This document shows, one piece after another, positions 1,075 to 35,294 of a stretch of DNA of 35,399 bases. Below the pieces are notes generated by a model. The model saw nothing but the letters and a program-made list of their open reading frames with translations, searched no databases and was not told the origin of the DNA. Each line of letters begins with the position of its first letter. Position 1 is the stretch's first letter. Origin of the DNA: Clostridium rhizosphaerae (GTDB lineage: Bacteria; Bacillota; Clostridia; Clostridiales; Clostridiaceae); contig NZ_JAESWC010000024.1 in assembly GCF_016765585.1 (NCBI RefSeq), positions 1 through 35,399 of the forward strand. The letters run 5' to 3'. A program made the translations under genes and the position numbers.

Positions 1075-1547
1075 ATTGATATCCTCCTTTGTCTAAAGTT
1101 TCTATAAATAACCTTATGTACGACTTGCGTTACAACTGCATTTTTCAGATTTCTCATCAAAGCCTAACCTGCACAATAAACTGCATGGGAGGCGGCGTCC
1201 TCGTGTATAATTTATTTCATCTAACGTCTCGCACTTAAGACGTTCCTGAACCGGACCCCAGAGGAATACTCCTTGGTTGCGCTTGTGCCGGTGAAGGAAT
1301 GTGCTTTGGCGGTGTTAAGTTTTACTACCTTAACCTATAGAATACACACATGTTAATCATGCCGCTTGTCCCGTCGCTCTCCGATCTAAAGCGAACTTGA
1401 GTACATTTTTATACGCAGCTTTAGCTACTGCACTTTGAGCTATGTTTATTTTATAAAGCCTCCTGCATTTGCTTATCATGAAAGAAACATCTATATCAAA
1501 TTAGTTTCTCAAATAACTATAGTTTAGTATAATTTTAAGTTCTTCTT
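1075..1547. other. Intergenic region holding attC-like site 1
   Basis: This 473-base gap holds the 5' leader of the acetyltransferase gene (1075-1218), structured site 1 (1219-1415) and a 3' tail reading TTTAGCTACTGCACTTTGAG that matches the tails of several other sites. I see no ORF. Confidence 0.6.
1219..1415 (-). repeat. attC-like site 1 (long form)
   Basis: The plus strand reads ATCTAACG at the left and ACTTGAGTACATTTTTATAC at the right. The outer arms are GCACTTAAG against CTTGAGTAC. The inner hairpin pairs GTTCCTGAACC with GGTGAAGGAATG, and a second pairs GCTTTGGC with AAAGC across a loop of about 70 bases. The GTTA box is degraded to TTTATA. Confidence 0.75.
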
Positions 1548-1961
1548 TTAGTTATCATGTTTTTTAATGAAATTCTTTCTTAGTTTAAAGTAAATAACTG
1601 TGGAAACTATTATGCCGATTAAAGATGCTATCATATCATTATTGTCCCATGACCCTAAATTGAAAACGACATGGAGATATTCAACAAGTAAAAAAACAAT
1701 CATGTTAAGTGCATTGATTAGCCAAATAAAGATAGGTTTATCGATTGAATCAGTACCTTTGAAAAAAGGTACTATATAGAATACGCCTATTAATGTAAAA
1801 AGAAAACTTGGTATAAGATTTGGTGCTGCTCCTGCAAATAGAGTAATATACTGATTGTTTAGATTATACAAGTTCTCTCTAAACATATACACTAGCATAA
1901 ATAAACCATATATAATAATTATAAATTTACTTAGTGCTTTATATTGTTTATGTCTAAACAT
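1548..1961 (-). CDS. Small integral membrane protein, weakly VanZ-like
   Basis: This 137-aa protein has four hydrophobic segments at roughly residues 10-28, 40-66, 76-96 and 108-128, separated by short polar loops, and a basic C-terminus. The last part (GSWDNNDMIASLIGIIVS) resembles the WDxNDxxANxxGxxxG motif of VanZ-like membrane proteins, but the match is partial and the function is unknown. The ribosome binding site is poor (AAAGG one base from the ATG). It sits between sites 1 and 2 together with the YciI-like gene upstream, so this block carries two genes. Confidence 0.65.
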   Translation of the reverse strand: MFRHKQYKALSKFIIIIYGLFMLVYMFRENLYNLNNQYITLFAGAAPNLIPSFLFTLIGVFYIVPFFKGTDSIDKPIFIWLINALNMIVFLLVEYLHVVFNLGSWDNNDMIASLIGIIVSTVIYFKLRKNFIKKHDN

Positions 1962-2095
1962 ACCTTTATTTGACTTAACTGATTTTAATTATTAATTGTT
2001 CTCATCCCCCATATGTCTTTAAATACTCTTTTTATACAATTGTATCTCAATAGCTACTTTAACCTCTTCAGCATTTAAAAGAGTTGCGAAATAAA

Positions 2096-2410
2096 TTATT
2101 TTTTTATTAAAGCAATCTTGTATGGAAATAACTCAGCTGTCATTATTCCTTCTACAACAGTAGGATCATTTTTCATGATACTTAATGCCTCTTCTTCTGA
2201 TTCAACTTCCAAAATTACTATTCCGAATGTTTTTTCATCTATGCCTAATGTTTTACCTGCTAAAACTAGCTTTCCTTCTTCAAGTAATTCTTGTAATCTA
2301 CTAAAGTGACTATCTACTATCTTTTCTTCCCTTTCTGTCCAGTTGTCCATATTTAATAGAGATGGTATTAACTTTAGAACATAAATAAATTGTTTTTTTT
2401 CATTTGACAT
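2096..2410 (-). CDS. YciI-family protein
   Basis: The protein is 104 aa when started at the ATG at 2410, which has GAAGGAG nine bases upstream. A longer reading frame would begin inside the remains of site 2 and is not credible. It shows the YCII dimeric alpha/beta barrel pattern: FIYVLKLIPSLL at the start, HFSRLQELLEEGKLVLAG in the middle and a regular SEEEALSIMKNDPTVVEG towards the end. YciI proteins are small proteins of mostly unknown role; some are fused to oxidoreductases or sigma factors. Here it is free-standing, followed by the membrane protein at 1548-1961. Confidence 0.85.
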   Translation of the reverse strand: MSNEKKQFIYVLKLIPSLLNMDNWTEREEKIVDSHFSRLQELLEEGKLVLAGKTLGIDEKTFGIVILEVESEEEALSIMKNDPTVVEGIMTAELFPYKIALIKK

Positions 2411-2450
2411 CTGTGGCACTCCTTCTATATTTTTTATGCACATTTTCTTA

Positions 2451-2512
2451 CCTTCGCAGGTGTAGCTTGGCTATCTATACAAGCCAAGCTGTACGAAAAA
2501 TTTTTGTTATCT
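2451..2512 (-). repeat. attC-like site 2 (half site)
   Basis: Only the right half of the structure remains. It has the end of the P2 hairpin (CTTCGCAGGTG), the P3 hairpin GCTTGGCT/AAGCCAAGC, and the outer arm with GTTATCT. The TAACG half is missing, and the leader of the YciI gene begins where it should be. It is followed by a typical tail (GTTTTTGCAGC). Confidence 0.75.
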
Positions 2513-2585
2513 ATAGTTTTTGCAGCTACTCTTTTTAAGCCACCGTTCCATTTCCAGTAACATACCTCATGCCCAATATCGCTAT

Positions 2586-2889: not shown

Positions 2890-3300
2890 TTAGATTATTA
2901 TACCTTCAAAGTGATCCATTTCATGTTGAATTATTTGTGCTATAAATCCAGTAAACACCTTTTTTTGCTTCTTAAAATTTCTATCAAGATACTCCACTTC
3001 TATCATTTCATATCTATTTGTTTTTCTAAAGCCAATTAAAGATAAACAACTCTCTTCAGTTTCATAAAGCTTTTCTTTCTTTAATATAACTGGATTTATC
3101 ATAGGCACAATATGGCCGCCTACAGTAAATACCAATATACGCTTTTTTACTCCAATCATATTACCAGCCAATCCAACACAATTCTCTAGGTTCGCCCTTA
3201 ATGTATCTATTAAATCATCAATTACTGCTATATCATTTTTTGTTGCATCTTCTGATTTTTGTCCTAAAAACAATATATCTTTTACAATTGGTTTTATCAT
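2890..3300 (-). CDS. def: Peptide deformylase-like protein
   Basis: The 136-aa protein has the layout of peptide deformylases, which remove the formyl group from N-terminal methionine. Motif 1 is GLAGNMIGVKKRI (residues about 43-55), motif 2 is ESCLSL with the metal-binding cysteine, and motif 3 is QHEMDHFEG with both metal-binding histidines and the catalytic Glu. In motif 1 the usual AAPQ reads AGNM, so the conserved glutamine that stabilises the transition state is missing. Short clostridial paralogues of this type exist beside the housekeeping enzyme, so a special or reduced activity is likely. It lies between sites 2 and 3. Confidence 0.85.
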   Translation of the reverse strand: MIKPIVKDILFLGQKSEDATKNDIAVIDDLIDTLRANLENCVGLAGNMIGVKKRILVFTVGGHIVPMINPVILKKEKLYETEESCLSLIGFRKTNRYEMIEVEYLDRNFKKQKKVFTGFIAQIIQHEMDHFEGIII

Positions 3301-3804
3301 AATTTATACCTCTTTTTCAGTTATATTTTTTATAAATCATACTATATCTTATATAAAATTAACACATAAAGTCCAACACTCAATTGGTACATCAATGACA
3401 CTGATTGAGTTGCATTTATTAGAATTCTTTACAAATTGTTTATGATGATACATTGCACTATAAGAAATTTATGTTTAACTCAATGACAAATTACTATTTA
3501 TCGGGCATTAAACAAGTAGTCTATATTTCGAAATTATCTACAATTGTTCCTCAATAAATAATTTTAGAACCTCTGAGCTATAACTCTGTTTCTCAAAAAT
3601 TACAGATAACGTTTCTTGTCAAGACTCCGAGAAGCCTAGAGCGACCGCACTTGGCTTCGCAGATGTGCTTTGCAGTCTTCTCATGCAAAGGGGACTTTAA
3701 TATTTTGTTATCTGATGGGATATGTTTTCTACCTTTTTATGTCACTATCCATTATCCCTAACTCCCTTTTGAATGATTGATGAAACTTACATGAAATTTG
3801 TTTT
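3301..3804. other. Intergenic region holding attC-like site 3
   Basis: No ORF is seen. The region contains a leader segment at 3544-3603 that is closely similar to 19539-19598, site 3 at 3604-3713, and a tail reading ATGTTTTCTACCTTTTTATG. The rest (3301-3540) is AT-rich without clear structure. Confidence 0.6.
3604..3713 (-). repeat. attC-like site 3 (both end boxes present)
   Basis: The end boxes are AGATAACG and GTTATCT, which pair with each other. The P1 stem is weak (TTGTCAAG against CTTTAATA). P2 reads CGAGAAGCCTAGAGCG on the left and CGCACTTGGCTTCG on the right, and P3 pairs GCTTTGCA with TGCAAAG. Confidence 0.8.
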
Positions 3805-4602
3805 TCATTTAACAGATGTTAAAATTGTTTTTAATTCCTGAAAAACATCAGGACTTGACACTATTACCTTATAACCATTTAAACAACTTGATAGTTCTGT
3901 GTTACTTTCAAGACCATAATGCCCAACAATTGCATCAGCTTCAGTGGCAATCAACTTGGCCGCAGCAACATCCCAAGGAAATAGCTTTTCCTCATAAAAT
4001 CCTTGTAAGCGACCACAAGCAACCCAGCAAATGTCTAAAGCTGGAGAGCCTATTCTCCTAATATCTCTTATCTTAGGAAGTATCGATTTTAATGTTTTAA
4101 TAATATAGTCTACGTTATCTTTATTATGAGGAAATCCAGTTCCAATAACACATTGCTTTAACTCTTTAACAGGCTTAAACTTTATTGAATGATTGTTTAA
4201 AAAAGCTCCCTTACCTTTAACTGCATAAAATGTTTCATTCAAAAATGGATTATGAACTACTCCTACCTCAACTTCATTATTTACAGCAAAAGCAATAGAT
4301 ATTGCTACCTGATAATGATCATTGGCATAACCTACAGTTCCATCGATGGGATCAATAATCCATGTTGGCTCTTTTATCATGAAACTGTTTTCTGTATCGC
4401 TTTCTTCGGATATAAATTTGTGCTCAGGAAAAGCCTTTGAAAGCTCTGTTTTTATTATATCTTCTGATATTAAATCTGCAGTTGTTACTAGTTCATGTCC
4501 ATTTTTTAAATATTCCTTATACCCACTATTTTCTCTAAGTTCTTTTATCCTTTTTCCAGCTAGCCTTGCAACACGAGTTGCCTCACTTAATATTTTTTCC
4601 AT
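3805..4602 (-). CDS. Inositol monophosphatase family protein
   Basis: The 265-aa protein belongs to the Mg-dependent, Li-sensitive phosphatases (IMPase, SuhB, CysQ and relatives), which hydrolyse small phosphate esters. The metal-site motifs are in order: TTADLISEDII, FISEES (the GEES-type Glu pair), WIIDPIDGT, and FPWDVAAAKLIATEA near residue 210, which is the WDxAA motif. Length is typical of the family. The ATG at 4602 is chosen because GGAGG lies eight bases upstream; the earlier in-frame ATG at 4617 overlaps that site. The substrate cannot be told: inositol phosphate, 3'-phosphoadenosine phosphate and sugar phosphates are all possible. It is the only gene between sites 3 and 4. Confidence 0.9.
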   Translation of the reverse strand: MEKILSEATRVARLAGKRIKELRENSGYKEYLKNGHELVTTADLISEDIIKTELSKAFPEHKFISEESDTENSFMIKEPTWIIDPIDGTVGYANDHYQVAISIAFAVNNEVEVGVVHNPFLNETFYAVKGKGAFLNNHSIKFKPVKELKQCVIGTGFPHNKDNVDYIIKTLKSILPKIRDIRRIGSPALDICWVACGRLQGFYEEKLFPWDVAAAKLIATEADAIVGHYGLESNTELSSCLNGYKVIVSSPDVFQELKTILTSVK

Positions 4603-4763
4603 CACACTATCCTCCATTTTTAATATATAAATAGTTCTAAAAGTAACATATAAAAAACCAGAAGCAAATATTATTAGACCTATTATTAATCTAGAGTCTT
4701 GTTTTTTACCAATTATCTATCGTTTTCTATAAATAATCGTGACCATAACAAACAATTCCTTTC

Positions 4764-4876
4764 AGATAACGTTTCCAACTCGCGAAACCTAGAAACTTAG
4801 TGTGACTGCACTTAGCTTCTCAGGTTTGGCTAGGTGTTCTTCTCAATCCCAGCCATACGCGAGTTTTTTGTTATTT
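4764..4876 (-). repeat. attC-like site 4 (both end boxes present)
   Basis: The end boxes are AGATAACG and GTTATTT. The outer stem pairs AACTCGCG with CGCGAGTT, a sequence unlike other sites but still complementary. P2 is CTTAGTGTGACTGCACTTAG and P3 is TTTGGCTAGG against CCCAGCC. The tail GATGTATCAGATCTTTTAC matches those of sites 13, 15 and 19. Confidence 0.8.
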
Positions 4877-5140
4877 GATGTATCAGATCTTTTACTTTCT
4901 ATATGCGTAAGGTTAACCCACTGAATTTTTTCATAATGTTTACAATAAAGGATGTATGTTACCTATATTTTATTATACCACGTGCTAGAGTAAAAACCGT
5001 TTACTCCAAGTGAGTTCTCCAAATTAAATGTTTGAATATTACGTATTGTAATGTTACAATGGTATAAATTTGTTAATATTGCAGTCAATTTACATGCTGT
5101 TACAGTGGTTATTTTATAAAATTGAAAGGGAGTATTTTGC
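4877..5140. other. Promoter region of the HAD gene and end of the left site block
   Basis: The first 80 bases are the tail of site 4, including TTTACAATAAAGGATG, which is also found after site 13. No ORF is seen. Confidence 0.5.
5045..5060 (+). promoter_or_regulatory. Hyphenated palindrome over a predicted promoter
   Basis: ATTGTAA-TG-TTACAAT is a perfect 7+7 inverted repeat. It overlaps a possible promoter with -35 TTGAAT and -10 TACAAT 17 bases apart, about 80 bases before the HAD hydrolase start. A repressor operator is an inference. Confidence 0.45.
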
Positions 5141-6095: not shown

Positions 6096-6142
6096 TTTTA
6101 TACCTTCCAATTTTCTTTACATTTTATTTGTTTTGCTATATC

Positions 6143-20559: not shown

Positions 20560-20997
20560 TTAAATCATGTCATTAATAATATCAAGTGGTAGAATAGTTT
20601 TACTTTTTAAGTCACTAATTATCCTTCTGATTAATGTGTGCGTTCTTAATTTATTATCACTTATTCCAGCAATTTCATCAGGTGATAACCACTTTACATT
20701 TATAATCTCATTATTATCATATTTTAAAATTCCATTAGTTACTTGTCCAACGTAGCAAAAAAATATAACATGATCATTATTAATACTTATAAAATTATAT
20801 ATTCCTAATAAGCCAGATATTGATATTTTATAGCCTGTTTCTTCTTCAACTTCTCTGATTGCGGCATTAAGTATTTTTTCATTATTCTCTAACTTACCCA
20901 TTGGAAAGTTCCACAACCCTTTTTCTACACCTTGACATTCTTGTACCATGAGAATCCTATTATTATCTTGAACCACACAACCTGCTACTATAGTCAA
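20560..20997 (-). CDS. Nudix hydrolase
   Basis: The 145-aa protein has a complete Nudix box, GKLENNEKILNAAI followed by REVEEETGY (Gx5Ex7REUxEExGU), which binds divalent metal and hydrolyses a nucleoside diphosphate linked to another group. The preceding GLWNFPMGK is the usual strand before the box. The substrate is unknown. The start is TTG with GGAGGG eight bases upstream. It is the only gene between sites 7 and 8. Confidence 0.93.
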   Translation of the reverse strand: MTIVAGCVVQDNNRILMVQECQGVEKGLWNFPMGKLENNEKILNAAIREVEEETGYKISISGLLGIYNFISINNDHVIFFCYVGQVTNGILKYDNNEIINVKWLSPDEIAGISDNKLRTHTLIRRIISDLKSKTILPLDIINDMI

Positions 20998-21062: not shown

Positions 21063-21155
21063 ATCTAACGTCTCGAACTTCCAATGATGAGACACTTAGC
21101 CATACTTGGCTTAGTTTCGCAGGTGTAGCTTGGCTATCTTTTCAAGCCAAGCTGA
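21063..21155 (-). repeat. attC-like site 8 (right end truncated)
   Basis: The left box is ATCTAACG. P2 is GACACTTAGCC/GGCTTAGTTTC and P3 is AGCTTGGCT/AAGCCAAGCT. After P3 the sequence runs directly into the 3' end of the NIPSNAP gene, whose stop codon (21158-21160) lies where the right outer arm should be. Confidence 0.75.
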
Positions 21156-21157
21156 AT

Positions 21158-21487
21158 TTATACTATCTTATTGAATGGAGAGTATGGTACTCTTTTCATA
21201 AAAACACTTTCAACCTTCTCTACTATGGGTCCATTTAGTTCAGATATTCTTTTTCCCTCAATCCACTTTGGATCCTTTTTAAAATTATAAAAATTCTGCT
21301 CTCTTGCTTCCATATCTTTGTGCTCAAGAATGTAATAAATGATATTCTTGCCTTCTGCATCTTCCCAAAAATCCAATGTATTCATTCCGTGTTTCTTAAA
21401 TAAATCTATTGTAAGATTAGAAAATCTATTATGAATATCCTCCATCTTTCCAGGTTTAATGTAATAAATTCTTAATTCGTAAATCAT
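21158..21487 (-). CDS. NIPSNAP-family protein
   Basis: The 109-aa protein has the NIPSNAP dimeric alpha/beta-barrel pattern: MIYELRIYYIKPGKMEDIHN at the start, FKKHGMNTLDFWEDAEGKN in the middle, and IYYILEHKDMEAREQNFYNF, then a fixed KDPKWIEGKRISE. Members are small proteins of unclear function related to the dimeric barrel enzymes. GGGAG precedes the ATG. It is downstream of a Nudix gene with only 49 bases between and no site separating them, so the two form one two-gene cassette between sites 8 and 9. Confidence 0.88.
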   Translation of the reverse strand: MIYELRIYYIKPGKMEDIHNRFSNLTIDLFKKHGMNTLDFWEDAEGKNIIYYILEHKDMEAREQNFYNFKKDPKWIEGKRISELNGPIVEKVESVFMKRVPYSPFNKIV

Positions 21488-21536
21488 TTTTTCTCCCTTA
21501 TAGTTGTTATTTTTGAATTAATATTTACATAAAACA

Positions 21537-22001
21537 TTATCTAAATGCGCCTCTTTTACCTTGAAAAAAATCATTTAGCATATCTGTATGCTGCTCAATA
21601 AATAATTTAGGAATATTATTTTTATCAAAAAACTTCAAATCAAATGTTTCTTTATTATCAACCATTAACTCTCCATTTAACATACTACACTTAAATAAAT
21701 GGCATATGGATTGTGACCTATCTCCATTTGGATAGGTATGAAAATATTTAGAATATACTCCAATAAAATGCTCCACTTCAACATTTAATCCAGTCTCTTC
21801 CTTAACCTCTCTAATTACAGCATCCTCAATGGATTCGCCAATTTCAACTGCTCCTCCCGGAAGTCCCCAAATATCATCTTTATCACTTCTTTTTTGTAGT
21901 AATATTTCTCCATTTTCATTTATAATACATGCAACTGAGAAATTTAAAATTATAGTATCATGACCTACCTTGCCTCTTATCCACTTTGCATAGTCTCCCA
22001 A
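21537..22001 (-). CDS. Nudix hydrolase
   Basis: The 154-aa protein has a complete Nudix box, [14 protein letters not shown] then [10 protein letters not shown]. The N-terminal [19 protein letters not shown] is typical of clostridial and bacillary Nudix proteins that begin with an IRxxVG element. Strand WGLPGG leads into the box. The substrate is unknown. The start is TTG behind GGGGGCAGG. It is the first gene of a two-gene cassette with the NIPSNAP gene, directly after site 9. Confidence 0.93.
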
Positions 22002-22103: not shown

Positions 22104-22152
22104 GTATAACGTTTCTTGTTCAAGTCCGCTTTGCTTGAACATTTTGTTATAT
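22104..22152 (-). repeat. attC-like site 9 (compact, 49 bases)
   Basis: This is the simplest copy: GTATAAC and GTTATAT pair, then an unpaired spacer (GTTTCT against TTTT), then TGTTCAAG/CTTGAACA with the loop TCCGCTTTG. This one-hairpin form, with a box stem, an unpaired spacer and a second stem, is the layout of short integron attC sites. Confidence 0.85.
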
Positions 22153-22257
22153 GTAGTTTTTGCCACTGCACTTTAAGCTGAAGCTACTCATGATATCTTT
22201 AAATTTATTTCACATTAGTTTTGTATTACGACGTAAAAATACCGTAAAATCCATTTT

Positions 22258-22376: not shown

Positions 22377-22817
22377 TTAAGATATAGATTTCCTAAATAA
22401 AAACTTTTTAAATAATAAGCCTAGTGTGATTCCAAAAATACCAGCACAAAGAATATTATTATAGTAATCGCCAATAGGTCTTAAATCAAAATACCTGCCT
22501 TCTATTGAAAATGTAAATGCAAGTTCACAAACAAGCCAAGAAAGAAAACTAGCCATAATTGCTTTTATAATTAAGTATTCTGAACCTAATTTTTCAAGTG
22601 AATAGCAAATTAAATTAGCAATAACGCCACCAATTATAAAATCCACAATTAACCCAATGATAAAATTAGGTCTGTTAAACGTAATTAGTAAGCTTGCTAA
22701 TTGATAAATACTGTATTTCCCAAATCCAAAATATACGAATAAATGAGAAATTATTTCAGCTGGTATTGTTGATACGATACCTATGAATGAAGTTAATAAC
22801 AATTTATCATTTTTCAA
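22377..22817 (-). CDS. Membrane protein of unknown function
   Basis: The 146-aa protein has four hydrophobic segments (about 8-28, 50-75, 83-102 and 120-138) with conserved-looking motifs IVSTIPAEIISHLFVYFGFG and DYYNNILCAGIFGITLG. I know similar small clostridial membrane proteins but no function. The start is TTG, with AGGGTG seven bases upstream that directly abuts a perfect 19-base inverted repeat. It is the only gene between sites 9 and 10 and is enclosed by a separate pair of 17-base inverted repeats. Confidence 0.65.
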   Translation of the reverse strand: MKNDKLLLTSFIGIVSTIPAEIISHLFVYFGFGKYSIYQLASLLITFNRPNFIIGLIVDFIIGGVIANLICYSLEKLGSEYLIIKAIMASFLSWLVCELAFTFSIEGRYFDLRPIGDYYNNILCAGIFGITLGLLFKKFLFRKSIS

Positions 22818-23027: not shown

Positions 23028-23155
23028 ATATAACGTTTCTAATTCAAGACGTGCCTGAACCTTAGCCAGACTTGGCTTGATGAAGGAATGTGCTTTGGCT
23101 TCTCCGTAAACTTGACCCTAGGCTAGGCAAAGCGGACTTGAGTGCATTGCTAGAT
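23028..23155 (-). repeat. attC-like site 10
   Basis: The left box is ATATAACG; the right box is degraded to GCTAGAT. P1 is TTCAAG/CTTGAG, P2 is GCCTGAACC...GATGAAGGAATG, and P3 is GCTTTGGCT against GGCAAAGC. The tail GCTGCTACACTTTAAGC follows. Confidence 0.75.
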
Positions 23156-23255
23156 GCAGTTTTAGCTGCTACACTTTAAGCTGAATCTACTCTTTTAACT
23201 ATAAATTTAATTGGCATTATAAGAATAATGCGTGTATATCAATGGTAGATTATGC

Positions 23256-23780
23256 TTATTTACGGAGGTCAATCCAATAGTGTTGGTGTACTGCACCTTC
23301 ATATATTTTTTCGCTTGTTAAAATACCGCTACAGCTTAATGCTGTTTTAGCTGAAGCGATATTATCTTTACCACATGCAATCATTACTTTCGGGATTTTC
23401 ATGTCTCGTGCAACATCTAAAACTAGCAAAAGCTGTTGTTTGCCGTAGCCTTTTTTTCTTTCCGATGGACGTATTCCATAAGCTATATGCGCACCATTTT
23501 CTAAATCAGGTGTTAAAAGATGGTGAAGCTTTACACTACCTATAATTTTATTGTCTTCTTTACGTATAGAAAAAAATGTACTTGTGTGAACGTTATTTCT
23601 TAGTTTATCTTTTTCAATGGAAAGGACAAGGTTAAGCCATTCATCAAAATTATCATGATAAGCCAGGCCACAACTTCCATTGACCTGCGTTTCTCCAAAG
23701 TCAAAGTATTCCTGCCTATATTCCCAAATTTCCCTTTCTAAAACCTTTGAAGGTCTGATTAAAAACAAATTGTTCATCAT
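23256..23780 (-). CDS. GNAT acetyltransferase (COG3981-like)
   Basis: The 174-aa protein is a GNAT of the predicted-acetyltransferase type: LIRPSKVLEREIWEYRQEYF, GSCGLAYHDNFDEWLNLVL, the central KIIGSVKLHHLLTPDLENGA, and the acetyl-CoA loop IRPSERKKGYGKQQLLLVLD. The substrate is unknown. AGGAG precedes the ATG. The stop codon overlaps a GATTATGCTTAT word that recurs near the ends of other cassette genes. It is the only gene between sites 10 and 11. Confidence 0.9.
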   Translation of the reverse strand: MMNNLFLIRPSKVLEREIWEYRQEYFDFGETQVNGSCGLAYHDNFDEWLNLVLSIEKDKLRNNVHTSTFFSIRKEDNKIIGSVKLHHLLTPDLENGAHIAYGIRPSERKKGYGKQQLLLVLDVARDMKIPKVMIACGKDNIASAKTALSCSGILTSEKIYEGAVHQHYWIDLRK

Positions 23781-23887: not shown

Positions 23888-24001
23888 ATCTAACGTTTCG
23901 AATTTCCGACGCCGAGAAGCTTAGAAAGCTCTTTTCTTAGCTTCGCAGGTGTGGCTTGGCTGTCTTTTCAAGCCAAGGTGTACGGAAATTTTTTGTTATA
24001 C
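23888..24001 (-). repeat. attC-like site 11 (both end boxes present, type example)
   Basis: ATCTAACG pairs with GTTATAC. P1 is ATTTCCG/CGGAAAT. P2 is GAAGCTTAGAAA/TTTCTTAGCTTC with one T-T mismatch. P3 is GGCTTGGCT/AAGCCAAG. The tail TTTAGCCTCTACACTTTGCG follows. Confidence 0.85.
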
Positions 24002-24217
24002 GCTGCTTTAGCCTCTACACTTTGCGCTGAATCTATTCAAAAATTCAAATTTACTTCACATAATAAGAGGATTGTGTACTTAGTTTATCGAAAATTATGC
24101 TTATTAAGTTCATGCCAAAACAATCATTAAATAATAGCCTCAGTGGGAATGTTTATAGTTAGGCAAGCCGCAACCTGCCCCATTGTCAAGGTGATCATCT
24201 GTAAATGCATAGACTTA
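24002..24217. other. Tail of site 11 and unassigned sequence
   Basis: After the tail of site 11, bases 24130-24200 contain a more GC-balanced stretch (around GGCAAGCCGCAACCTGCCCC) that looks foreign to its surroundings. I found no frame that resembles a known protein in it. Confidence 0.35.
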
Positions 24218-24703
24218 CTACAAAAAATATACATAATCTATATGTTCACCAACAAAATCAGCAATATTCTGCTCCTTCCTTTTCTTGTATATTTTGAATC
24301 CAATACTCTCATACATTCTTTGAGCAGAGATTAGGTCATCATTCGTGGTTACAACGATTTTTTTTACATCATTTTGGATGATTCTATTGACCGCTTCTTG
24401 AAGCTGTATTTTACCATAACCATTGCTTTTGTATTTTGACGCAATGCAGTTATGGCCAATTTCCGCATACTCAGGAATGTTTCTCGGATCCCATACAACA
24501 AATCCGATGGCTTCATCGTTTAGGGTTGTGATAAACCCACATTTATCAGCAATATGCAAATTGTCAAAGAAAAAGTTATCACAATCTCGCCAATTAGAAT
24601 ACCATCTTTGTTCATATCTGCAATCAAATGAATACGCATCTTTCAATAATTCAAAGAGTATTCCCCGATTAAAGTCTCTCACTTTTTTAAATTTAAAACT
24701 CAT
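24218..24703 (-). CDS. GNAT acetyltransferase
   Basis: The 161-aa protein has the GNAT plan: FELLKDAYSFDCRYEQRW in the first helices, FITTLNDEAIGFVVWDPR as central hairpin, IASKYKSNGYGKIQLQEAVN as acetyl-CoA loop, and TTNDDLISAQRMYESIGFKI as the last strand-helix pair. The substrate is unknown. GGAG lies eleven bases before the ATG. It is the only gene between sites 11 and 12. Confidence 0.9.
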   Translation of the reverse strand: MSFKFKKVRDFNRGILFELLKDAYSFDCRYEQRWYSNWRDCDNFFFDNLHIADKCGFITTLNDEAIGFVVWDPRNIPEYAEIGHNCIASKYKSNGYGKIQLQEAVNRIIQNDVKKIVVTTNDDLISAQRMYESIGFKIYKKRKEQNIADFVGEHIDYVYFL

Positions 24704-24828: not shown

Positions 24829-24940
24829 GTATAACGCTTCTAATTTTCGATGCCGAGAAGCCTAGAAAGCTTTTTTCTTAGCTTCGCAGGTATGGCTTGG
24901 CTGTCTTTTCAAGCCAAGCCGAGCGGTAATATTTCTTCTA
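24829..24940 (-). repeat. attC-like site 12 (right box degraded)
   Basis: The left box is GTATAACG. P2 is GAAGCCTAGAAA/TTTCTTAGCTTC and P3 is GGCTTGGCT/AAGCCAAGCC. The right outer arm reads GAGCGGTAATATTTCTTCTA, so the GTTAT box is gone. Its left flank (24762-24828) is nearly the same as that of site 9. Confidence 0.75.
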
Positions 24941-25036
24941 CCAATATTCCTTTCCTTCTAATCTGTAAAATTTGAAAAAAGCGAATCTATCCTACCTGAA
25001 GAATTAATCATTTTAAACCATGTGATTCCTAAAAAG

Positions 25037-25441
25037 TTATCTCTTTTTATCTACCAACCACTCTTTTGCTTTCTCATAATCGTTAATGAAAGCATACACA
25101 AAAGAGATACCTAATATTTCCATTGAAGATTTCATTAGTTTTTGAGAAGTACGATTAAGTCCAACAAAGACCACCTTTTGTACTGAGTTTTCTGCTTTTT
25201 TTAGTTCAGTAACAATAATATTAACTAGGTTTTCTTCCACTAACGTTTCATTTAGATGGATTGCAATTAGGCCTGGAGAGGATGGCTTTCTGATAGTTAC
25301 CATATCTCTCAAGAATTTATCTATTACAACATCTGTGTATATGTTCAATCCATCTAATTCTTCACCCCATATCTCACTACCTGAAAATGGCAGTTTAAAC
25401 GAATTTCTAATTATTAAATTTTCTTTTAGGATTTTTTTCAT
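25037..25441 (-). CDS. Hypothetical protein, possibly STAS-like
   Basis: The 134-aa protein alternates strands and helices: GLIAIHLNETLVEENLVNII, then VQKVVFVGLNRTSQKLMKSS, ending FINDYEKAKEWLV. The pattern of a central VVFVGL strand and a C-terminal FxNDYxxAxxWL resembles SpoIIAA/STAS-like domains, but I would not rely on it. The ATG at 25441 has GGAGG just upstream and is preferred to an in-frame TTG at 25453. It is the only gene between sites 12 and 13. Confidence 0.6.
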   Translation of the reverse strand: MKKILKENLIIRNSFKLPFSGSEIWGEELDGLNIYTDVVIDKFLRDMVTIRKPSSPGLIAIHLNETLVEENLVNIIVTELKKAENSVQKVVFVGLNRTSQKLMKSSMEILGISFVYAFINDYEKAKEWLVDKKR

Positions 25442-25547
25442 TTCCCCCTCCAATAATACACGTTATTTTATAATTATAATTCTATATCATATAAACGTAG
25501 TAAAAAACTTTAGGCGTAAATATAAACTTTATTAGATTTAAAATATC

Positions 25548-25741
25548 ATATAACGTTTCGTGTTGCCGACGTTCCTGAACCAGACCTCAGAAGAATCCCC
25601 CTTGGCTGCACTTGCGCCGGTGAAGGCATGTGCCTTAGAGTCTCACCTTTTTAACCTATATATAGATTATAAACCATAAATTTACACATATCTATATTAA
25701 AAAATCAACCTACCAAGGCGGACGGCAAAATTTTGTTAGTT
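25548..25741 (-). repeat. attC-like site 13 (long form, both end boxes present)
   Basis: ATATAACG and GTTAGTT are the end boxes. P1 is TTGCCG/CGGCAA. P2 is GTTCCTGAACC...GGTGAAGGCATG. P3 pairs GTGCCTTAG with CAAGGC across an AT-rich loop of about 70 bases. The tail GATGTTTTAGGTCATTTAC matches sites 4, 15 and 19. Confidence 0.8.
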
Positions 25742-25940
25742 GATGTTTTAGGTCATTTACTATCTATATGCATAGGACTATCCCCAAGATTTTTTTATAT
25801 TGTTTACAATAAAAATCGTCTTAGATTCAAAGAAGTTGCGATTAAATAAAATCTTAGATTATTCTAAAGTGAATATTTAAATATAATAAGGATATACTTT
25901 ACAACATTATTAATGAAGTATTTAAAAGGAGGAATTCAAT
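25742..25940. other. Tail of site 13 and leader of the Nth-like gene
   Basis: The first 80 bases are the site tail, including TTGTTTACAATAAAAATC, also found after site 4. The rest is the AT-rich upstream region of the plus-strand gene. I see no other feature. Confidence 0.45.
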
Positions 25941-26738: not shown

Positions 26739-26787
26739 AGGAAGACAATGCTGTATCTACAAAACCTTTTAATGGACACTAAGGAGA

Positions 26788-26818
26788 GCCCGGAACGAAC
26801 GGGAAGATATTGTTAGCT
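26788..26818 (-). repeat. attC-like site 14 (right-half remnant)
   Basis: CGGAACGAACGGGAAGATAT followed by TGTTAGCT matches the right outer arm and GTTA box of other sites. The left half and both hairpins are missing. Confidence 0.5.
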
Positions 26819-26932
26819 GAAGGTCATCACACTATACTTGAAATTTGTACTATCCAAAAACCACTTCCGGTTCAGATTATTTAAAGAATACGAACTAAGG
26901 ATTATGCTCATAAAATCCCGATAAATGGGAAT

Positions 26933-27457
26933 TTATCTCTGCATCTGTTCTATGATAAGTCTTGTATTTTCGTCAATAGGCTTGGTACCATCTATTCGGA
27001 TAATTTGGCAACTTAAAGATTGTACCCATTCTTCAACGTAATACTCTGTTCTGGAACCTACCATATCAAAAAACGCTTCTTCACGTTCGTGCAAATCTCC
27101 ACCGGGTAACATTCTATTACCAAATTTCTGAAAAGAACGTTTTCTCACTCGATTTAATCGAATGTCTTTCGTAACATCTATCAGTACTGCATATTGATAG
27201 AACGGCAGAATTTCTTTTCCACAATCCCCTTTCACGGCGGCATAAACAAAGTTTTCATGTACTCTGACCTCGGTCATAAGAAGTTTTGCAGCTTCTTCGC
27301 GTGATCTTGGGGAAGCGAAAATATAATTCGAATCTATTTTGGGGAAAAATAGATTTTCATTATCAATAAAATGAAATCTAAGTTTCTCTGAAAGTGCTTT
27401 ACCTAACGTACTTTTTCCACTACCATTTAAACCACATACAATAATTCCAATTCCCAT
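26933..27457 (-). CDS. P-loop kinase-like NTPase
   Basis: The 174-aa protein is an adenylate/shikimate-kinase-like P-loop protein. Walker A is CGLNGSGKSTLGKALSEKL at the N-terminus, FHFIDNENLFFP follows as the strand with an acidic end, YAVLIDVTKDIRLNRVRKRS is the Walker B and LID region, and it ends in IIRIDGTKPIDENT. The substrate is not evident; small-molecule or nucleotide phosphorylation is the usual role. GGAGG precedes the ATG at 27457 by seven bases. It lies between sites 14 and 15 with the broken methyltransferase upstream. Confidence 0.88.
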   Translation of the reverse strand: MGIGIIVCGLNGSGKSTLGKALSEKLRFHFIDNENLFFPKIDSNYIFASPRSREEAAKLLMTEVRVHENFVYAAVKGDCGKEILPFYQYAVLIDVTKDIRLNRVRKRSFQKFGNRMLPGGDLHEREEAFFDMVGSRTEYYVEEWVQSLSCQIIRIDGTKPIDENTRLIIEQMQR

Positions 27458-27556
27458 AAATATTCCTCCATCAAGTTCCAATTGGTCTGCCAGTCGGATT
27501 ATTCGAAGATTGCGTCATAATCCAAGTACAGATTTTGCTTATACTATTCGAAGCTT

Positions 27557-28290
27557 CTACTTTGTAAAAACACCACAAATAGTTTCGCCTGAATCTGAAA
27601 ATTCCTTCCCCGCAATATCCCCATAAAATTCAAATGTATTGAAACCTGCGATTTGAATTTCTGATAATAGTGCATCCTTTGTAAAAAAATGATCCCATAT
27701 ATTATAGCAATTTACAGTTTCTTCGGTTAGCACAATAGACTGCCTTAATTCTGTACTATCTTCATCATCATATTGATAAACAGAGTCTAAGCAGACATGT
27801 GGCTTTTCACTAAAAAACCCACCCTTTTCATAGTATTTCCATGAACGATTTTCACCTTTCCTCATAGGAGGCGTAAATACATCAAAAATAAATTTACCGT
27901 TAGGCTTTAATGCTTGATATACTTTTCTCAATAAAATAAGCCTATCCGTAATTGATAACGCTGCATAATCACAATATATCAATGTTATTACATCGAACTG
28001 TTCTATATAATCAATTGTCAAGTTGTTTTGGTAATGGTACTCGATATTGCTTTTATTAAGTAATGTTTGTTCCTTTGCATACAAAATGGAGCGTTTAGAA
28101 AAATCCACTCCTGTAACAGAATATCCAGCACTATTAAATCGCTCTGCATATAATCCAGGGCCGCAGCCCAATTGGGATTTAGATGAGCTGCTAACATACC
28201 TTTAGAGATATGTTCATCATCCCAAAATTTATTTGTGCTTGGATCATATAATTTAGGTTTGGTTGTATATTTTTTAAATTCATTAAACAT
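27557..28290 (-). pseudogene. SAM-dependent methyltransferase, broken by internal deletion and frameshift
   Basis: A good ribosome binding site (AAGGAG, eight bases from the ATG at 28290) starts MFNEFKKYTTKPKLYDPSTN ... MLAAHLNPN, the usual N-terminus of this family. The rest (LGCGPGLYAERFNSAGYSVT onwards) continues in another frame. In complete relatives about 25-30 residues separate HLNPN from the LLDLGCGPG motif I strand; here the two are nearly joined, around 28168-28182. Both a deletion and a frame change have occurred, so no intact protein is expected. Downstream motifs, including VITLIYCDYAALS and KPNGKFIFDVF, are intact, so the damage looks recent. Confidence 0.85.
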
Positions 28291-28527: not shown

Positions 28528-28641
28528 ATCTAACGTCTCGTGTTCAAGACGCCGAGAAGCTTAGAAAACTCTTTTCTTAGCTTCGCAGGTATAGCTTGGC
28601 TGTTTTTTCAAACCGAGCTGAACAGAAATTTTTTGTTATAT
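28528..28641 (-). repeat. attC-like site 15 (both end boxes present)
   Basis: ATCTAACG pairs with GTTATAT. P1 pairs are weak here (GTTCAAG against GAACAGAAAT). P2 is GAAGCTTAGAAAA/TTTCTTAGCTTC and P3 is AGCTTGGCT against AACCGAGCT. The tail GATGTTTTAAATCCTTCAC follows. Confidence 0.8.
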
Positions 28642-28773
28642 GATGTTTTAAATCCTTCACTATCTTTATACGTGAATCTTTCCTTTTTAACATTCCTTCC
28701 CATTCGTTCCAAATTTCATGCCTAAAACCAATTACAATGCTATCAAAATTTTTTTAAAATTATAAAACAGGTC

Positions 28774-31494: not shown

Positions 31495-31628
31495 ATCTAA
31501 CGTCTTGTACCCAAAACGTTCCTGAACTTAACCCCAAAAGGAATATCCCCTGGATGCGCTTGCGCTAGTGAAGGATTGTGCTTTGGCTATCTTTTCATGC
31601 CAAAGCGAACTTGAGTGTTTTGTTATAT
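31495..31628 (-). repeat. attC-like site 16 (both end boxes present)
   Basis: ATCTAACG and GTTATAT are the end boxes. P2 is ACGTTCCTGAAC...AGTGAAGGATTG, with inner GCGCTTGCGC. P3 is GCTTTGGC/GCCAAAGC and the right outer arm contains ACTTGAGTG. Confidence 0.8.
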
Positions 31629-31701
31629 GCTGTTCCGTTGAGTGAAACCTCCAAAACATACCATACTCAAACCTTTCTTCATTTAAATATATCTAAAACA
31701 C

Positions 31702-32397
31702 TTATATACATTTCTGACTTTGCAATGAAATCTCATTAAGTATTTGCTGGACAATGTTCAAGTTAGCAACTTTTCTGTCTAAATGTATCCCTAGAAAATC
31801 TAATCTATCTGCAGTTTCCACATTTTTTATCTTGTCATCAATAAATGCACATTCTTCTGCATCTGCATTTAAGGAATTTAATGCAATTTTATAAATCTCT
31901 TCATCTGGTTTGCTAACTCCTGCAAATGCAGAAATAACAATACTATCAAAATATTTTCTAATGTCCAAAGTATCAAATACCCAATCCATACTTGGTAGTG
32001 CATTAGAAATAACTCCAAGTTTATAAGTTCTACTCAAGTCATCTAACAAATTTCTTACTTCACTGAATAGTTTGCAGTGGATTGCATAGTGTGTATGATA
32101 AAGTAATTGTTTCTTTAAGGAGTATGAAAAATCATGTGTTATTTCTTTTAGAATTGCTTCATAGTATTGATCCCAATATGTCTCTTCATCACTCCAAGTA
32201 GTTAACCATTTGCCATTTCTTAGATACTCTTTAGAGAATTCCTCACCTTTATTTAAGCCATTTTCGATAAGGATATCATCAAAGCCTTTTGCTGTTAAGA
32301 GTTTTCTAATCCTTTCGTTTCTTGATATTTCAGTATCAAATAGAACTCCACCAGCATCAAAGAAAATCGTTTTAATATTACTATTTAGCTTCCCCAT
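31702..32397 (-). CDS. HAD-superfamily hydrolase
   Basis: The 231-aa protein is a subfamily IA HAD protein. Motif I is IFFDAGGVLFDTE (the second Asp of DxD replaced by Gly, as in many IA variants), motif II is GVISN, motif III is the lysine of VSKPDEEIY, and motif IV is CAFIDDKIKNVETA. The helical cap lies at about 25-110. The substrate is unknown. GGGG precedes the ATG by eight bases. It is the only gene between sites 16 and 17. Confidence 0.9.
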   Translation of the reverse strand: MGKLNSNIKTIFFDAGGVLFDTEISRNERIRKLLTAKGFDDILIENGLNKGEEFSKEYLRNGKWLTTWSDEETYWDQYYEAILKEITHDFSYSLKKQLLYHTHYAIHCKLFSEVRNLLDDLSRTYKLGVISNALPSMDWVFDTLDIRKYFDSIVISAFAGVSKPDEEIYKIALNSLNADAEECAFIDDKIKNVETADRLDFLGIHLDRKVANLNIVQQILNEISLQSQKCI

Positions 32398-32488: not shown

Positions 32489-32601
32489 ATATAACGCTTC
32501 GAATTTCCGACACCGAGACACTTAGCCAGACTTGGCTTAGTGTCGCAGGTGTAGCTTGGCTATCTTTTCAATCCAATCTGAACGGAAATTTATTGTTATC
32601 T
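32489..32601 (-). repeat. attC-like site 17 (both end boxes present)
   Basis: ATATAACG pairs with GTTATCT. P1 is AATTTCCG/CGGAAATT. P2 is CACC...GACACTTAGCC/GGCTTAGTGTC...GGTG with the T-T mismatch. P3 is GCTTGGCT against AATCCAATC, with two changes in the right arm. Confidence 0.85.
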
Positions 32602-32649
32602 GAAGCTTAAAAAATTTCTATTAAGTATTCTATATAAAAGTCCAAGGAT

Positions 32650-33294
32650 TTATATTAATAGATTAATCTGAAAGCTTTCATTTGAATCTATTTCTAGCAT
32701 AAATTGTAGAAAATCATATATAGTTTCATATGCATCCAGTCCTTCCTTAATCAGCTCAATTAGTTCAACATCCCTTTTTTCTATATAGTTCTTAAATTTA
32801 GATAAATCAATTTTATGCGATTTATTGTGAACTAAACTATTTCTACTTTTTATCAAGCTTTTTAATCTTCCATAAATATCGCGATCCTTTGGAAATGGTT
32901 TCTCTAATACCAATTGAGTAATTACTACTATCTTACTCATAGGATCAAGTTTATCAATATGTTCTTTGATGAAATTGTCTCCTAGTCTTCTAGCTCCATA
33001 ATCATATATGTAAGCTTCTAGAAACAAAGCCGAAAATATAATGGATGATATTGCTTCGAACTCTATCTTTTTTTCTAGAACATCTATTCTTTTTAACATC
33101 TTATACTCTTGTTTGCATAATTCTTCTGTTTCCTGTTCTTCAACCTGTTTTTCTATAATTTCTAGTTTTGCATAAAAGTCCTTCAATTTATTCTTTAACC
33201 TGTTTAGATTGGAGAAATGTTTTTTAGAAATTGAATAGAATAAAGAATGCTTACTATCCCTTGATAATTCATTAAGTATTCCCTCACTCTCCAT
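32650..33294 (-). CDS. HEPN-like coiled-coil protein
   Basis: The 214-aa protein starts with a charged coiled-coil (about 20-75: NRLKNKLKDFYAKLEIIEKQ and onwards), followed by an all-helical domain. SALFLEAYIYDYGARRLGDN opens that domain, and RLKSLIKSRNSLVHNKS contains R-N-S-L-V-H, the Rx4H motif at the catalytic site of HEPN ribonucleases. HEPN domains are common in toxins and phage-defence proteins, but some are inactive, and no nucleotidyltransferase partner is adjacent. GGACGGG precedes the ATG. It is the only gene between sites 17 and 18. The family call rests on one motif and helical pattern. Confidence 0.6.
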   Translation of the reverse strand: MESEGILNELSRDSKHSLFYSISKKHFSNLNRLKNKLKDFYAKLEIIEKQVEEQETEELCKQEYKMLKRIDVLEKKIEFEAISSIIFSALFLEAYIYDYGARRLGDNFIKEHIDKLDPMSKIVVITQLVLEKPFPKDRDIYGRLKSLIKSRNSLVHNKSHKIDLSKFKNYIEKRDVELIELIKEGLDAYETIYDFLQFMLEIDSNESFQINLLI

Positions 33295-33332: not shown

Positions 33333-33405
33333 AGATAACGTCTCGAATTTCCGTCCTGCTTGGCTATTTTTTCAAGCCAAGCAGGACGGAAATTTATTGT
33401 TATAT
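33333..33405 (-). repeat. attC-like site 18 (short, near-perfect hairpin)
   Basis: AGATAACG and GTTATAT are the end boxes. Between them AATTTCCGTCCTGCTTGGCT and its exact complement form a 20-base-pair stem with a nine-base loop. The P2 hairpin is absent, so P1 and P3 are fused into one stem. Confidence 0.85.
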
Positions 33406-33492
33406 GTAGTTTAAGGCACTGCACTTTGAATAGAACCTATTATAATTAACTTATAATTTATTTCGTAATTTAAGAATATTGCTACTCATATA

Positions 33493-33999
33493 TTAGATTT
33501 TTGTTTCTATTTCCTTTGCGTTCAATGTTCTTTTTATAAGTTCTAAAATATATTCCTCTGCATTTTTACTTAATCGAATTCCTAATTTTACTATTAGTAT
33601 TCCAAATATAAGCAAAATAAATGGTATTATCATTCCTAATACTGGGCTCCCCTCACTAAATGATGTCCCTAAAAAAACATCTGAAAAAGAAACTAAAAAT
33701 ATAAGTCCACCTATTGATATTACCCCACTGAACCAAATTGTAATAAATACTTTTACAAAAGCACTCATACTAAAACTACCTTGAATAATAGTTCCATTTT
33801 CTTTCTTCATAAATTCTCCGTAGAAAATTCTAGAAAATGAATTTCGGTAATTTGAATCTGTTCTTAGTAAATTAAACTTATCCTTCTCAAAATCCACTTT
33901 ACCTCTTATACCGCTAATAGGAAATCCATTTTCTTTAACTATCTCATTGATGCTTTTTTTACATTCCTCAATATCTAGTTCTGTATAATAAGAATGCAT
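33493..33999 (-). CDS. Membrane protein of unknown function
   Basis: The 168-aa protein has an N-terminal soluble part (1-80) and two hydrophobic segments at about 85-108 and 122-142 (FVKVFITIWFSGVISIGGLI; GMIIPFILLIFGILIVKLGI). GRF-like FYGEFMKKENGTIIQGSF precedes the first. I have seen such proteins in Bacillota but know no function. The ATG at 33999 has AAGGGGG about nine bases upstream; the ATG at 34008 would be too close to it. It is the only gene between sites 18 and 19. Confidence 0.65.
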   Translation of the reverse strand: MHSYYTELDIEECKKSINEIVKENGFPISGIRGKVDFEKDKFNLLRTDSNYRNSFSRIFYGEFMKKENGTIIQGSFSMSAFVKVFITIWFSGVISIGGLIFLVSFSDVFLGTSFSEGSPVLGMIIPFILLIFGILIVKLGIRLSKNAEEYILELIKRTLNAKEIETKI

Positions 34000-34098
34000 T
34001 TTGATCATCCCCCTTCTTTAAAGCCTCAACAGATTACAATTGTGTCTTAATTACATGATTAAAAAACTTTGAATCGGTACTCTTTTATACAAAATTAC

Positions 34099-34271
34099 AG
34101 ATAACGTTTCGTATTGCCGACGTTTCCGAGCCTTAGATAGCTCTTATCTTAGGCTTGGAAATGTGCCTTGGCTTTTTAGGCAATCTTTTTCTGTTTAGAA
34201 TATAGCTTAATACTTTTACTATCTCCCATTTAAATATTTATGCCAAGGCGAACGGCAACATTTTGTTATAG
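34099..34271 (-). repeat. attC-like site 19 (long form, both end boxes present)
   Basis: AGATAACG pairs with GTTATAG. P1 is TTGCCG/CGGCAA. P2 is GAGCCTTAGATA/TATCTTAGGCTT with the T-T mismatch. P3 pairs GCCTTGGC with GCCAAGGC across an AT-rich loop of about 70 bases. The tail GATGTTTTAGACCTTTTAT matches site 13. Confidence 0.85.
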
Positions 34272-34434
34272 GATGTTTTAGACCTTTTATTTTCTACATG
34301 CGTAATGTTGTCCTATCAAAATTTTCTCTGAGAATTTTACAATATAAGGAGTTTCCACTTAATTAAATCTAAAATTATGTTGCTTCAATCTAAAAATTGG
34401 AATTTGTAGAGCTCCATATTATGCTCATTTTTAA

Positions 34435-34959
34435 CTATAGATAAATCCAATACCTGCGCATGATATGATTGCCCTCATCTTTATTATAAGCAGGGATTCT
34501 ATCCATTAACACACCGCCAAGTTTTTCACATATATGTGCTGACAATATGTTTTGATCGTTGATCGTCAGTAAGACTCTTTCAAGAGGGTGGTCTCTTGCT
34601 ATGACAAGTCCTTGCCTTAATATTTCCGTTCCGTAACCTTTCCCCTGTTCGGTTATAAGAACAGAATAGCCTATACTTCCTATTCCTGTCATTACTTCCT
34701 CTTGCAATTCTGTCCGCAATTGGAATTCACCAATAAAATTATCCCCATCGACCGCCCAGTAATGAAAACTTACAGGTTGACCAGAAATCAATCCCAATTC
34801 TTTTTTATCATACCAGCTTTTAGTTCTTTCAAACCAGGTTTCATCAATCAACGCAGGATTTGTAGGTCGAAAATAATGGATGTCATGATCCCAAAATTCT
34901 TGACAGTATTCTTTATACCCATCTACATATATGGCATTTCGCCGTATTAATTTAAGCAT
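34435..34959 (-). CDS. GNAT acetyltransferase (COG3981-like)
   Basis: The 174-aa protein has the plan of the GNAT at 23256: LKLIRRNAIYVDGYKEYCQE, a DNFIGEFQLRTELQEEVMTG hairpin, IGYSVLITEQGKGYGTEILR as the acetyl-CoA loop (QGKGYG), and NDQNILSAHICEKLGGVLMD. The substrate is unknown. The ATG at 34959 follows GAAAGGGAAAG; an earlier in-frame start at 35001 is less likely because the binding site would lie inside the gene. It is the only gene between sites 19 and 20. Confidence 0.9.
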   Translation of the reverse strand: MLKLIRRNAIYVDGYKEYCQEFWDHDIHYFRPTNPALIDETWFERTKSWYDKKELGLISGQPVSFHYWAVDGDNFIGEFQLRTELQEEVMTGIGSIGYSVLITEQGKGYGTEILRQGLVIARDHPLERVLLTINDQNILSAHICEKLGGVLMDRIPAYNKDEGNHIMRRYWIYL

Positions 34960-35119
34960 ATTATATAACTTTCCCTTTCGTATTATATAAATATTATCCA
35001 CTATAAATTCACTATTTTTTAAATACTTTACATTACTAGTATGTAAGTTTCTTACAATTTCTACTTCTTATTAGTGCTACTGAATGCATAAATTTATACT
35101 CACATAGGTCTTAAATTTC

Positions 35120-35294
35120 CTATAACGTTTCTTGTTGCCGACGCCCTCGAGCCTTAGATATCTCTTATCTTAGGCTCGGGGATGTGCCTTGGCGATAGTT
35201 TTATGGATTTTTAATTTAAAGATATATCTGAATATGGTACTTGTCCGATACAAAGCACTCTTTAGCCAAGGGGAACGGCAACATTTTGTTCGTA
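35120..35294 (-). repeat. attC-like site 20 (long form)
   Basis: CTATAACG is the left box; the right box reads GTTCGTAT and no longer pairs well. P1 is TTGCCG/CGGCAA, P2 is GAGCCTTAGATA/TATCTTAGGCTC, and P3 is TGCCTTGGC against AGCCAAGG across an AT-rich loop of about 70 bases. Confidence 0.8.

Follow-up and report, generated by a model that had tools for sequence, protein, structure and literature searches.

A probable integron-like cassette array in Clostridium rhizosphaerae and a patchless tyrosine recombinase linked to related arrays in Bacillota

Analysis of a 35,399-nucleotide (nt) stretch of Clostridium rhizosphaerae DNA (positions 1 to 35,399 of contig NZ_JAESWC010000024.1, or C17, here called the window) revealed 20 attC-like sites in a single orientation, separated for the most part by accessory genes. 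The window belongs to genome G000 (4,849,201 bases in 27 contigs, 96.85% complete) and is very probably part of an integron-like cassette array whose tyrosine recombinase lacks the patch of the integron integrase IntI. Judged by sequence, the system appears to work like an integron and to lie outside the IntI integrons as these are defined by patch and clade. An integron-like array had been the original prediction, and it is the best-supported reading, given the attC-like boxes with covarying stems, the single orientation and the gene-plus-site units; it is further backed by the arrays of relatives, whose platform end carries a recombinase together with an attI-like site, and by homology breaks near the GTT core. 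For the array of G000 itself, the most fitting description is a CALIN-like remnant of an integron system with a patchless recombinase, CALIN being, in passages of PMC8618304 and PMC9024848, clusters of attC sites lacking integron-integrases.

Structure and orientation of the attC-like sites

The 20 sites, all in one orientation as had been foreseen, comprise 18 found with a covariance model (R1; E ≤ 0.029, every match on the + strand) and two found by eye (S6 and S14). R1 was trained on 18 sites of G000, six of which lie in the window (S3, S4, S5, S11, S15, and S17) and consequently match by construction. Because the genes lie mostly on the minus strand, an intact site reads TAACA (R'') ... 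CGTTA (R') in gene direction. The predicted pair of boxes, TAAC and GTTANNN, held well for R', whose GTTA is kept in 18 of the 20 sites, but less so for R'', which is an intact TAACA in only 12; degenerate sites include S2 and S14, without R', and S1, S7, S8, and S12, without a recognisable R''. The proposed match to the GTTRRRY core is looser than claimed, since GTTAGAT, present at 6/20 sites, fits it and the remaining GTTATNN forms do not. Seventeen of the 19 intervals between neighboring sites measured 0.72 to 1.76 kb, and the remaining two 2.97 and 13.67 kb. A search of the window against Rfam gave 0 matches, a tRNA scan of it found none, and a site from the window had no match in plasmid and phage collections.

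Pairing between the two halves of the sites was assessed in an 18-site alignment, where 93.7% of cells pair, compared to 84.4% after shuffling, and the covariation score was 0.299 against 0.137 (0/500 shuffles reached as high a value). Two-sided changes affect 14 pairs and 54 cells, compared to 18.4 cells in shuffled alignments. Sliding the partners lowered pairing to between 24 and 46%, a control that favors the proposed structure because this was derived from the same alignment. In a separate test with 114 sites picked by their boxes alone, with no energy filter, the arms of one site paired with each other at a mean of -14.0 kcal/mol and with the arms of other sites at -9.7 kcal/mol; in 94 sites the own partner outdid the median of the foreign arms. 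There are at least two arm families (AATTTCCG, CACTCAAG, TGTTGCCG, and others), in which the right-hand partner is altered to match. The sites show the architecture of attC, with R''/R' boxes, paired L arms and a variable middle. Copies also have in common a 5' leader that follows R' and a tail that precedes R'' (e.g., 22144-22211, 23147-23214, and 23838-23888). Another feature seen was an inverted repeat with GGGACGGTTAACAACAATTAG and GTTGTTAACCGTCCC arms at 17586-17670, which is either a terminator or a small element.

Regarding orientation, a strict box-plus-stem finder detected nine sites on the + strand of the window and none on the - strand (shuffled windows, mean 0.7 with both strands summed), and a looser finder applied over array loci detected 165 sites that run in gene direction compared to 6 that run the opposite way. 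R1 gave 72 matches at E ≤ 1 on 7 contigs of the whole genome, all + on C10, C16, C17, C7, and C6 (a single match on the last) and all - on C12 and C27. Sites in both orientations in equal numbers, which the original prediction had named as speaking against an array, were thus looked for and not found, orientation being uniform on each contig. With strict filters, R1 matches at E ≤ 0.01 occur in 32 of 206 genomes of the family, G000 included, and copy number among the scored genomes ranges from 1 to at least 18.

The recombinase and the attI-like element

The absence of an integrase from the window was borne out, whereas an IntI beyond the window, raised as one option, was not recovered: the integron integrase profile TIGR02249 matched nothing over its cut-off in G000 and gave only sub-cut-off matches in a search of 98 genomes (cut at E 1e-30), and a patchless tyrosine recombinase was found instead wherever a platform end was identified. 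The 98-genome search led to P0001, a 363-residue protein of G006, and a search of the family's genomes with P0001 gave 27 places in 16/206 genomes at E 1e-60. Eight of these places, in seven genomes, carry close (54% or more) or relic copies, five of them intact (G006, G176 twice, G175, and G185) and three relics (G000, G167, and G206). R1 sites lie nearby in all eight, and in each the recombinase precedes the first cassette on the cassette strand. Identity to P0001 is lower, 38 to 47%, at the remaining 19 places, and the surroundings inspected there include IS91-type pairs.

The relic of G000 is located on C7, between the array and a pepP/acc gene cluster. It has 222 residues and lacks the N-terminal domain, of which no remnant could be recognised upstream. 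Since this N-truncated copy is the only one found in the genome, the array is probably CALIN-like and inactive now. The CALIN option raised in the original prediction also fits G000. The predicted platform upstream of the cassettes agrees with the polarity on C7, a contig separate from C17. A recombinase on C10 was considered as the integrase and rejected, as it is part of an IS91-type pair and lies on the wrong side of the array compared to the geometry elsewhere.

Alignment of the array recombinases revealed invariant columns R204, K229, H294, R297, H320, and Y329 in 21/21 members, the residues R, K, H, R, H, and Y being what we take to be the catalytic set of tyrosine recombinases; the proteins accordingly carry the catalytic residues of that class. 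The IntI patch was present in 6/6 IntI references (from public plasmids) and in 0/22 array recombinases, and it was also absent in five IS91-linked recombinases. Four full-length proteins were scanned with TIGR02249 and scored 211 to 218 bits, below the cut-off of 265, and P0001 passes NF040815 (222 vs 220 bits). The nearest solved chain is the Vibrio IntI 2a3v, in an alignment that skips 2a3v residues 186 to 239, and the same IntI was the best fold match of a first recombinase structure model, itself weak (predicted template modelling score, pTM, 0.46). In a phylogenetic tree of 36 rows, with midpoint root and several long branches, the IntI branch (100/99) was separate from the array group (95/93), which includes the Maribacter row; the IS91-linked recombinases fell apart from the array group, with the IS91 rows split in two. 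The array recombinases thus lack the IntI patch and, in this tree, fall outside the IntI clade, apart from the six IntI references.

An N-terminal domain is usually present and resembles HARP. PF07443 (HARP) was its commonest match (11/19 members at E ≤ 1, best 1.1e-4), with no match of this profile to P0001. In a profile search of the domain, the HARP domain of SMARCAL1 (4o66) led at E 0.048, and in a fold search with a predicted model (predicted local distance difference test, pLDDT, 82.6) it had a probability of 0.92 at a weak E of 0.084. The fold search gave no match at E ≤ 0.001; a ribosomal-processing protease, which is unrelated, ranked first (E 0.022), with XPB, SMARCAL1 HARP, and MutS below (E 0.024 to 0.8). 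Distorted or branched DNA is the substrate of XPB and HARP domains, which suggests that the HARP-like domain may help to recognise the folded site. In two of the 21 members (Vallitalea and Alkaliphilus NORP52) the domain is absent from the aligned frame; as Alkaliphilus NORP52 has four sites downstream, either the domain is not strictly required or these frames are incomplete.

Past the stop codon of the recombinase lies a conserved element in which inverted repeats (in Clostridiaceae, ACGACACCAAYGTCGG ... GACATTGGTGTCG) accompany a TAGTTA core; it was seen in 8 aligned loci and in most other loci listed, the C7 copy aligning poorly there. This represents a candidate attI site next to the recombinase in the relatives. 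Among 19 cross-genome alignments over the gene end, 11 stop before the stop codon and 8 pass it, seven of the latter ending 3 to 27 nt beyond the attI core and one extending 100 nt further.

These data also bear on whether the array might be a classical IntI integron whose integrase was lost or is missing from the assembly, with the patchless recombinase as a bystander. The box and stem architecture is like that of classical attC, the G000 assembly is incomplete, and the generic site finder described below, applied to a classical array of Vibrio sp. HDW18 (7.4 kb), detected 7 forward and 0 reverse sites, with none on the core side. Nevertheless, we regard such an origin as very improbable, given the lack of TIGR02249 matches over cut-off in G000 and, in the search cut at E 1e-30, in 98 genomes, the patchless recombinase at the platform end in 8/8 family places and the attI-like element directly after it.

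Cassette boundaries and occurrence in Bacillota

Homology breaks were examined in 53 segments shared between genomes, of which a peptide filter, itself incomplete, dropped 19 and left 34, at least two recombinase segments being among those left. In the filtered set, 11 of 68 5' ends lay within 10 nt of a core, compared to 5.1% at random, and concordant cores occurred at both 5' ends (within 17 nt) in 5/34 segments and at both 3' ends (within 14 nt) in 2/34. In the clearest shared cassettes, identity starts at the R' box after unrelated sites, or stops at the R' box. Group II introns, IS91 elements or core genes account for several of the longest shared segments, and whole-cassette comparison yielded just 6 pairs. 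The breaks at cores, enriched at 5' ends and not at 3' ends, support cassette exchange rather than prove it. An exact matching of R' cores over all 53 segments, which was set aside, gave a concordant CGTTA near the 5' end in 7 and near the 3' end in 2.

When named genomes were scanned with the N-terminal portion of the recombinase, 37 loci were obtained, in Clostridium spp., Fervidicella, Anaeromonas, Alkaliphilus, Vallitalea, Paenibacillus, Cohnella, Tepidibacillus, metagenome bins, and one Maribacter. Twenty-one had at least 1.5 kb of DNA downstream, 13 were too short and in three no C-terminus was found. A generic site finder, devised after some of these loci had been seen, detected sites at 19 of the 21, with 75 forward and 1 reverse downstream (145 kb) and 4 and 3, respectively, upstream (183 kb). 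The same finder was applied unchanged to an even sample of 398 Bacillota genomes, 24 of which, G000 included, had a recombinase match at E 1e-75. Of 23 loci fetched, 18 extended far enough downstream to be tested, and attC-like sites were present there in 16 (downstream, 55 forward and 1 reverse in 117.5 kb; upstream, 2 and 4 in 146.5 kb). The reading as an array in Clostridium is supported, and the recombinase that goes with such arrays is not confined to one Clostridium but recurs in Clostridiaceae, other Clostridia, Paenibacillus, and Cohnella. In G096, the first gene past the recombinase (L147:1477-2553) matches the defence reverse transcriptase RT_UG13a (E 8.5e-159). A Bacteroidota recombinase on a Chryseobacterium plasmid (L195) is 41.7% identical to P0001 across almost its full length and is followed by single genes on the same strand.

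Movement of the arrays by IS91-type elements with an accessory tyrosine recombinase was also considered. A transposase and a recombinase of IS91 type adjoin the array on C10, the IS91-linked recombinases matched P0001 in the family search with 38 to 47% identity, and one locus of the phylum sample (L241) is an IS91-type case, with the transposase directly after the recombinase and yet four sites downstream. The separation of these recombinases from the array group, even with the IS91 rows split in two, and the attI-like element, which in the loci listed comes after the patchless recombinase of the arrays, make this explanation extremely unlikely. In plasmids of Thiodictyon and Pseudoalteromonas (L189 and L193), an IS91-family transposase and a patchless tyrosine recombinase were found close to true IntI genes, just as such a pair adjoins the array on C10.

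Several results weigh against an integron-like array. R1 and the generic finder were both built on sites of these arrays, and 20 of the 114 box-chosen sites have no perfect arm of at least 5 nt. The 96.85% complete assembly of G000 holds no intact recombinase, and the generic finder detected no site at two of the 21 named loci (L160 and L163, with an R1 match at the L163 place) or at two of the 18 phylum loci (L227 and L228). In addition, 3' ends of the filtered segments lay within 10 nt of a core in 3/68 cases, which is not above random, and similarity among copies continues outside the boxes, a feature not expected from cassette exchange. These last two results, together with short perfect hairpins such as S18 and the presence of sites at several places per genome, would suit a scatter of palindromic elements, REP/MITE-like or terminator-like, which came to lie 3' of genes without any recombination of cassettes. 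That explanation is an improbable one when set against the single orientation per contig and the 165 to 6 count by strand, the position of sites across Bacillota on the downstream rather than the upstream side of one type of recombinase, the attI-like core with its homology breaks, and shared units that consist of gene plus site.

In the integron-like mechanism that we propose, each unit would be an accessory gene followed by its attC-like site, one strand of which would fold in the cell into a cruciform-like hairpin. The recombinase, patchless, usually with a HARP-like N-terminus and encoded on the cassette strand just upstream of the attI-like site, would cut within the R' box, at G/TT, and exchange the folded site with attI or a second site, and genes would be captured and shuffled as gene-plus-site circles. 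On a wider proposal our confidence is evenly balanced: that Bacillota possess a second, old integron system in which the patchless recombinase would recognise folded single-stranded sites aided by an N-terminal distortion-recognition domain of HARP/XPB-DRD type, which would stand in for the IntI patch. Such a system would be a source of accessory genes for Clostridia of soil and gut and for Paenibacillaceae, much like chromosomal integrons in Proteobacteria.

Cassette genes and relation to known systems

The cassettes are broadly the single, same-strand accessory genes that had been predicted, with exceptions. Two genes each lie between S2 and S3, S8 and S9, and S14 and S15, genes on the + strand occur inside S13-S14 and S15-S16, and the 13.7 kb between S4 and S5 are ordinary chromosome with genes on both strands, not a cassette. 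This site-free stretch (13.6 kb, 4878-18435), which splits the array, carries rpiA and genes for nitroreductase, HD-GYP, LysE, Crp, YdcZ, and DUF218 proteins; its LysE gene and a small open reading frame (~14484-15493) are 95% identical to a C10 copy beside an IS91-type transposase/recombinase. The methyltransferase gene region at ~27506-28171 has a 95% identical copy on C12.

Table 1. Sites and cassette genes of the window; the strand is that of the gene direction.
Feature	Position	Strand	Details
S1, attC-like site	1219..1415	-	R' GTTAGAT, R'' degenerate; R1 27.0 bits
YCII-related cassette gene	2096..2443	-	PF03795, E 3.3e-12
S2, site	2383..2513	-	R' lost, R'' TAACA; R1 40.5 bits
Peptide deformylase-like cassette gene	2890..3300	-	PF01327, E 2.6e-28
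S3, site	3604..3714	-	R1 93.4 bits (training member)
Inositol monophosphatase family cassette gene	3805..4617	-	PF00459, E 4.6e-56
S4, site	4764..4877	-	R1 114.4 bits (training member)
S5, site	18436..18548	-	R' GTTAGAT; R1 120.9 bits (training member)
Methyltransferase-like cassette gene	18647..19492	-	PF08241, E 4e-5
S6, collapsed site, ~22 nt	19599..19620	-	R' present, R'' TAGCA; by eye, missed by R1
GNAT cassette gene	19713..20267	-	PF13302, E 2.3e-26
S7, site, right end approximate	20335..20480	-	R'' lost; R1 17.5 bits at 20354-20463, E 0.029; box by eye
Nudix cassette gene	20560..20997	-	PF00293, E 2.7e-21
S8, site	21063..21177	-	R' GTTAGAT, R'' lost; R1 76.9 bits
Two-gene cassette, NIPSNAP and Nudix	21158..22001	-	PF07978, PF00293
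S9, short site, 50 nt	22104..22153	-	R1 33.3 bits
Cassette gene	22377..22817	-	No Pfam match
S10, site	23028..23156	-	R1 44.5 bits
GNAT cassette gene	23256..23780	-	PF13302, E 1.1e-10
S11, site	23888..24002	-	R' GTTAGAT; R1 126.4 bits (training member)
GNAT cassette gene	24218..24703	-	PF00583, E 2.3e-10
S12, site	24829..24944	-	R'' lost; R1 94.0 bits
Cassette gene	25037..25453	-	No Pfam match
S13, site, long form	25548..25742	-	R1 32.8 bits
S14, half site (R'' end only)	26767..26820	-	By eye, missed by R1
Two-gene cassette, kinase-like and methyltransferase	26933..28171	-	PF13238, PF13649
S15, site	28528..28642	-	R' GTTAGAT; R1 112.6 bits (training member)
S16, site	31495..31629	-	R' GTTAGAT; R1 51.7 bits
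HAD hydrolase cassette gene	31702..32397	-	PF00702, E 2.4e-18
S17, site	32489..32602	-	R1 132.7 bits (training member)
Cassette gene	32650..33294	-	One weak sub-cut-off Pfam match
S18, site, single long perfect hairpin	33333..33406	-	R1 68.9 bits
Cassette gene	33493..34008	-	No Pfam match
S19, site	34099..34272	-	R1 76.7 bits
GNAT cassette gene	34435..35001	-	PF13302, E 4.7e-10
S20, site	35120..35295	-	R1 57.5 bits

Integrons are regarded as nearly absent from Firmicutes; passages of the IntegronFinder 2.0 survey (PMC9024848) name one complete integron (Limnochorda pilosa) and a few CALIN. The original prediction knew of no described array in Clostridium, and no description of it or of patchless arrays was found in the open-access literature, judged by titles and the starts of abstracts, a report elsewhere (preprints or subscription papers) being possible. 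If the arrays are active, an entire class has escaped the surveys in which the IntI patch is a requirement, and the need of the patch for folded single-stranded sites becomes directly testable. The accessory genes common to Clostridia and Paenibacillaceae would then have a ready explanation, and a new recombinase would be available for study.

The arrays resemble the chromosomal (sedentary) integrons with IntI, such as the Vibrio superintegrons, in being one-orientation arrays of gene-plus-site units, with R''/R' boxes (TAACA .. GTTA), paired arms, and a recombinase and an attI-like site at one end. Unlike in IntI integrons, the recombinase is patchless, belongs to a separate clade and usually has a HARP-like N-terminal domain, and its gene lies on the cassette strand and is followed by attI. 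The integrons of Treponema type likewise have intI in cassette orientation and attI at its 3' side; their integrase, a true IntI with patch, differs from the array recombinase. As in CALIN, the window has sites and no integrase; unlike CALIN, the arrays of the relatives end with a recombinase, one of another kind. We know of no attC arrays for XerC/D. The array recombinases share the catalytic core and the lack of a patch with XerA/XerC/XerD-type and IS91-linked recombinases, the latter of which, unlike them, group elsewhere in the tree.

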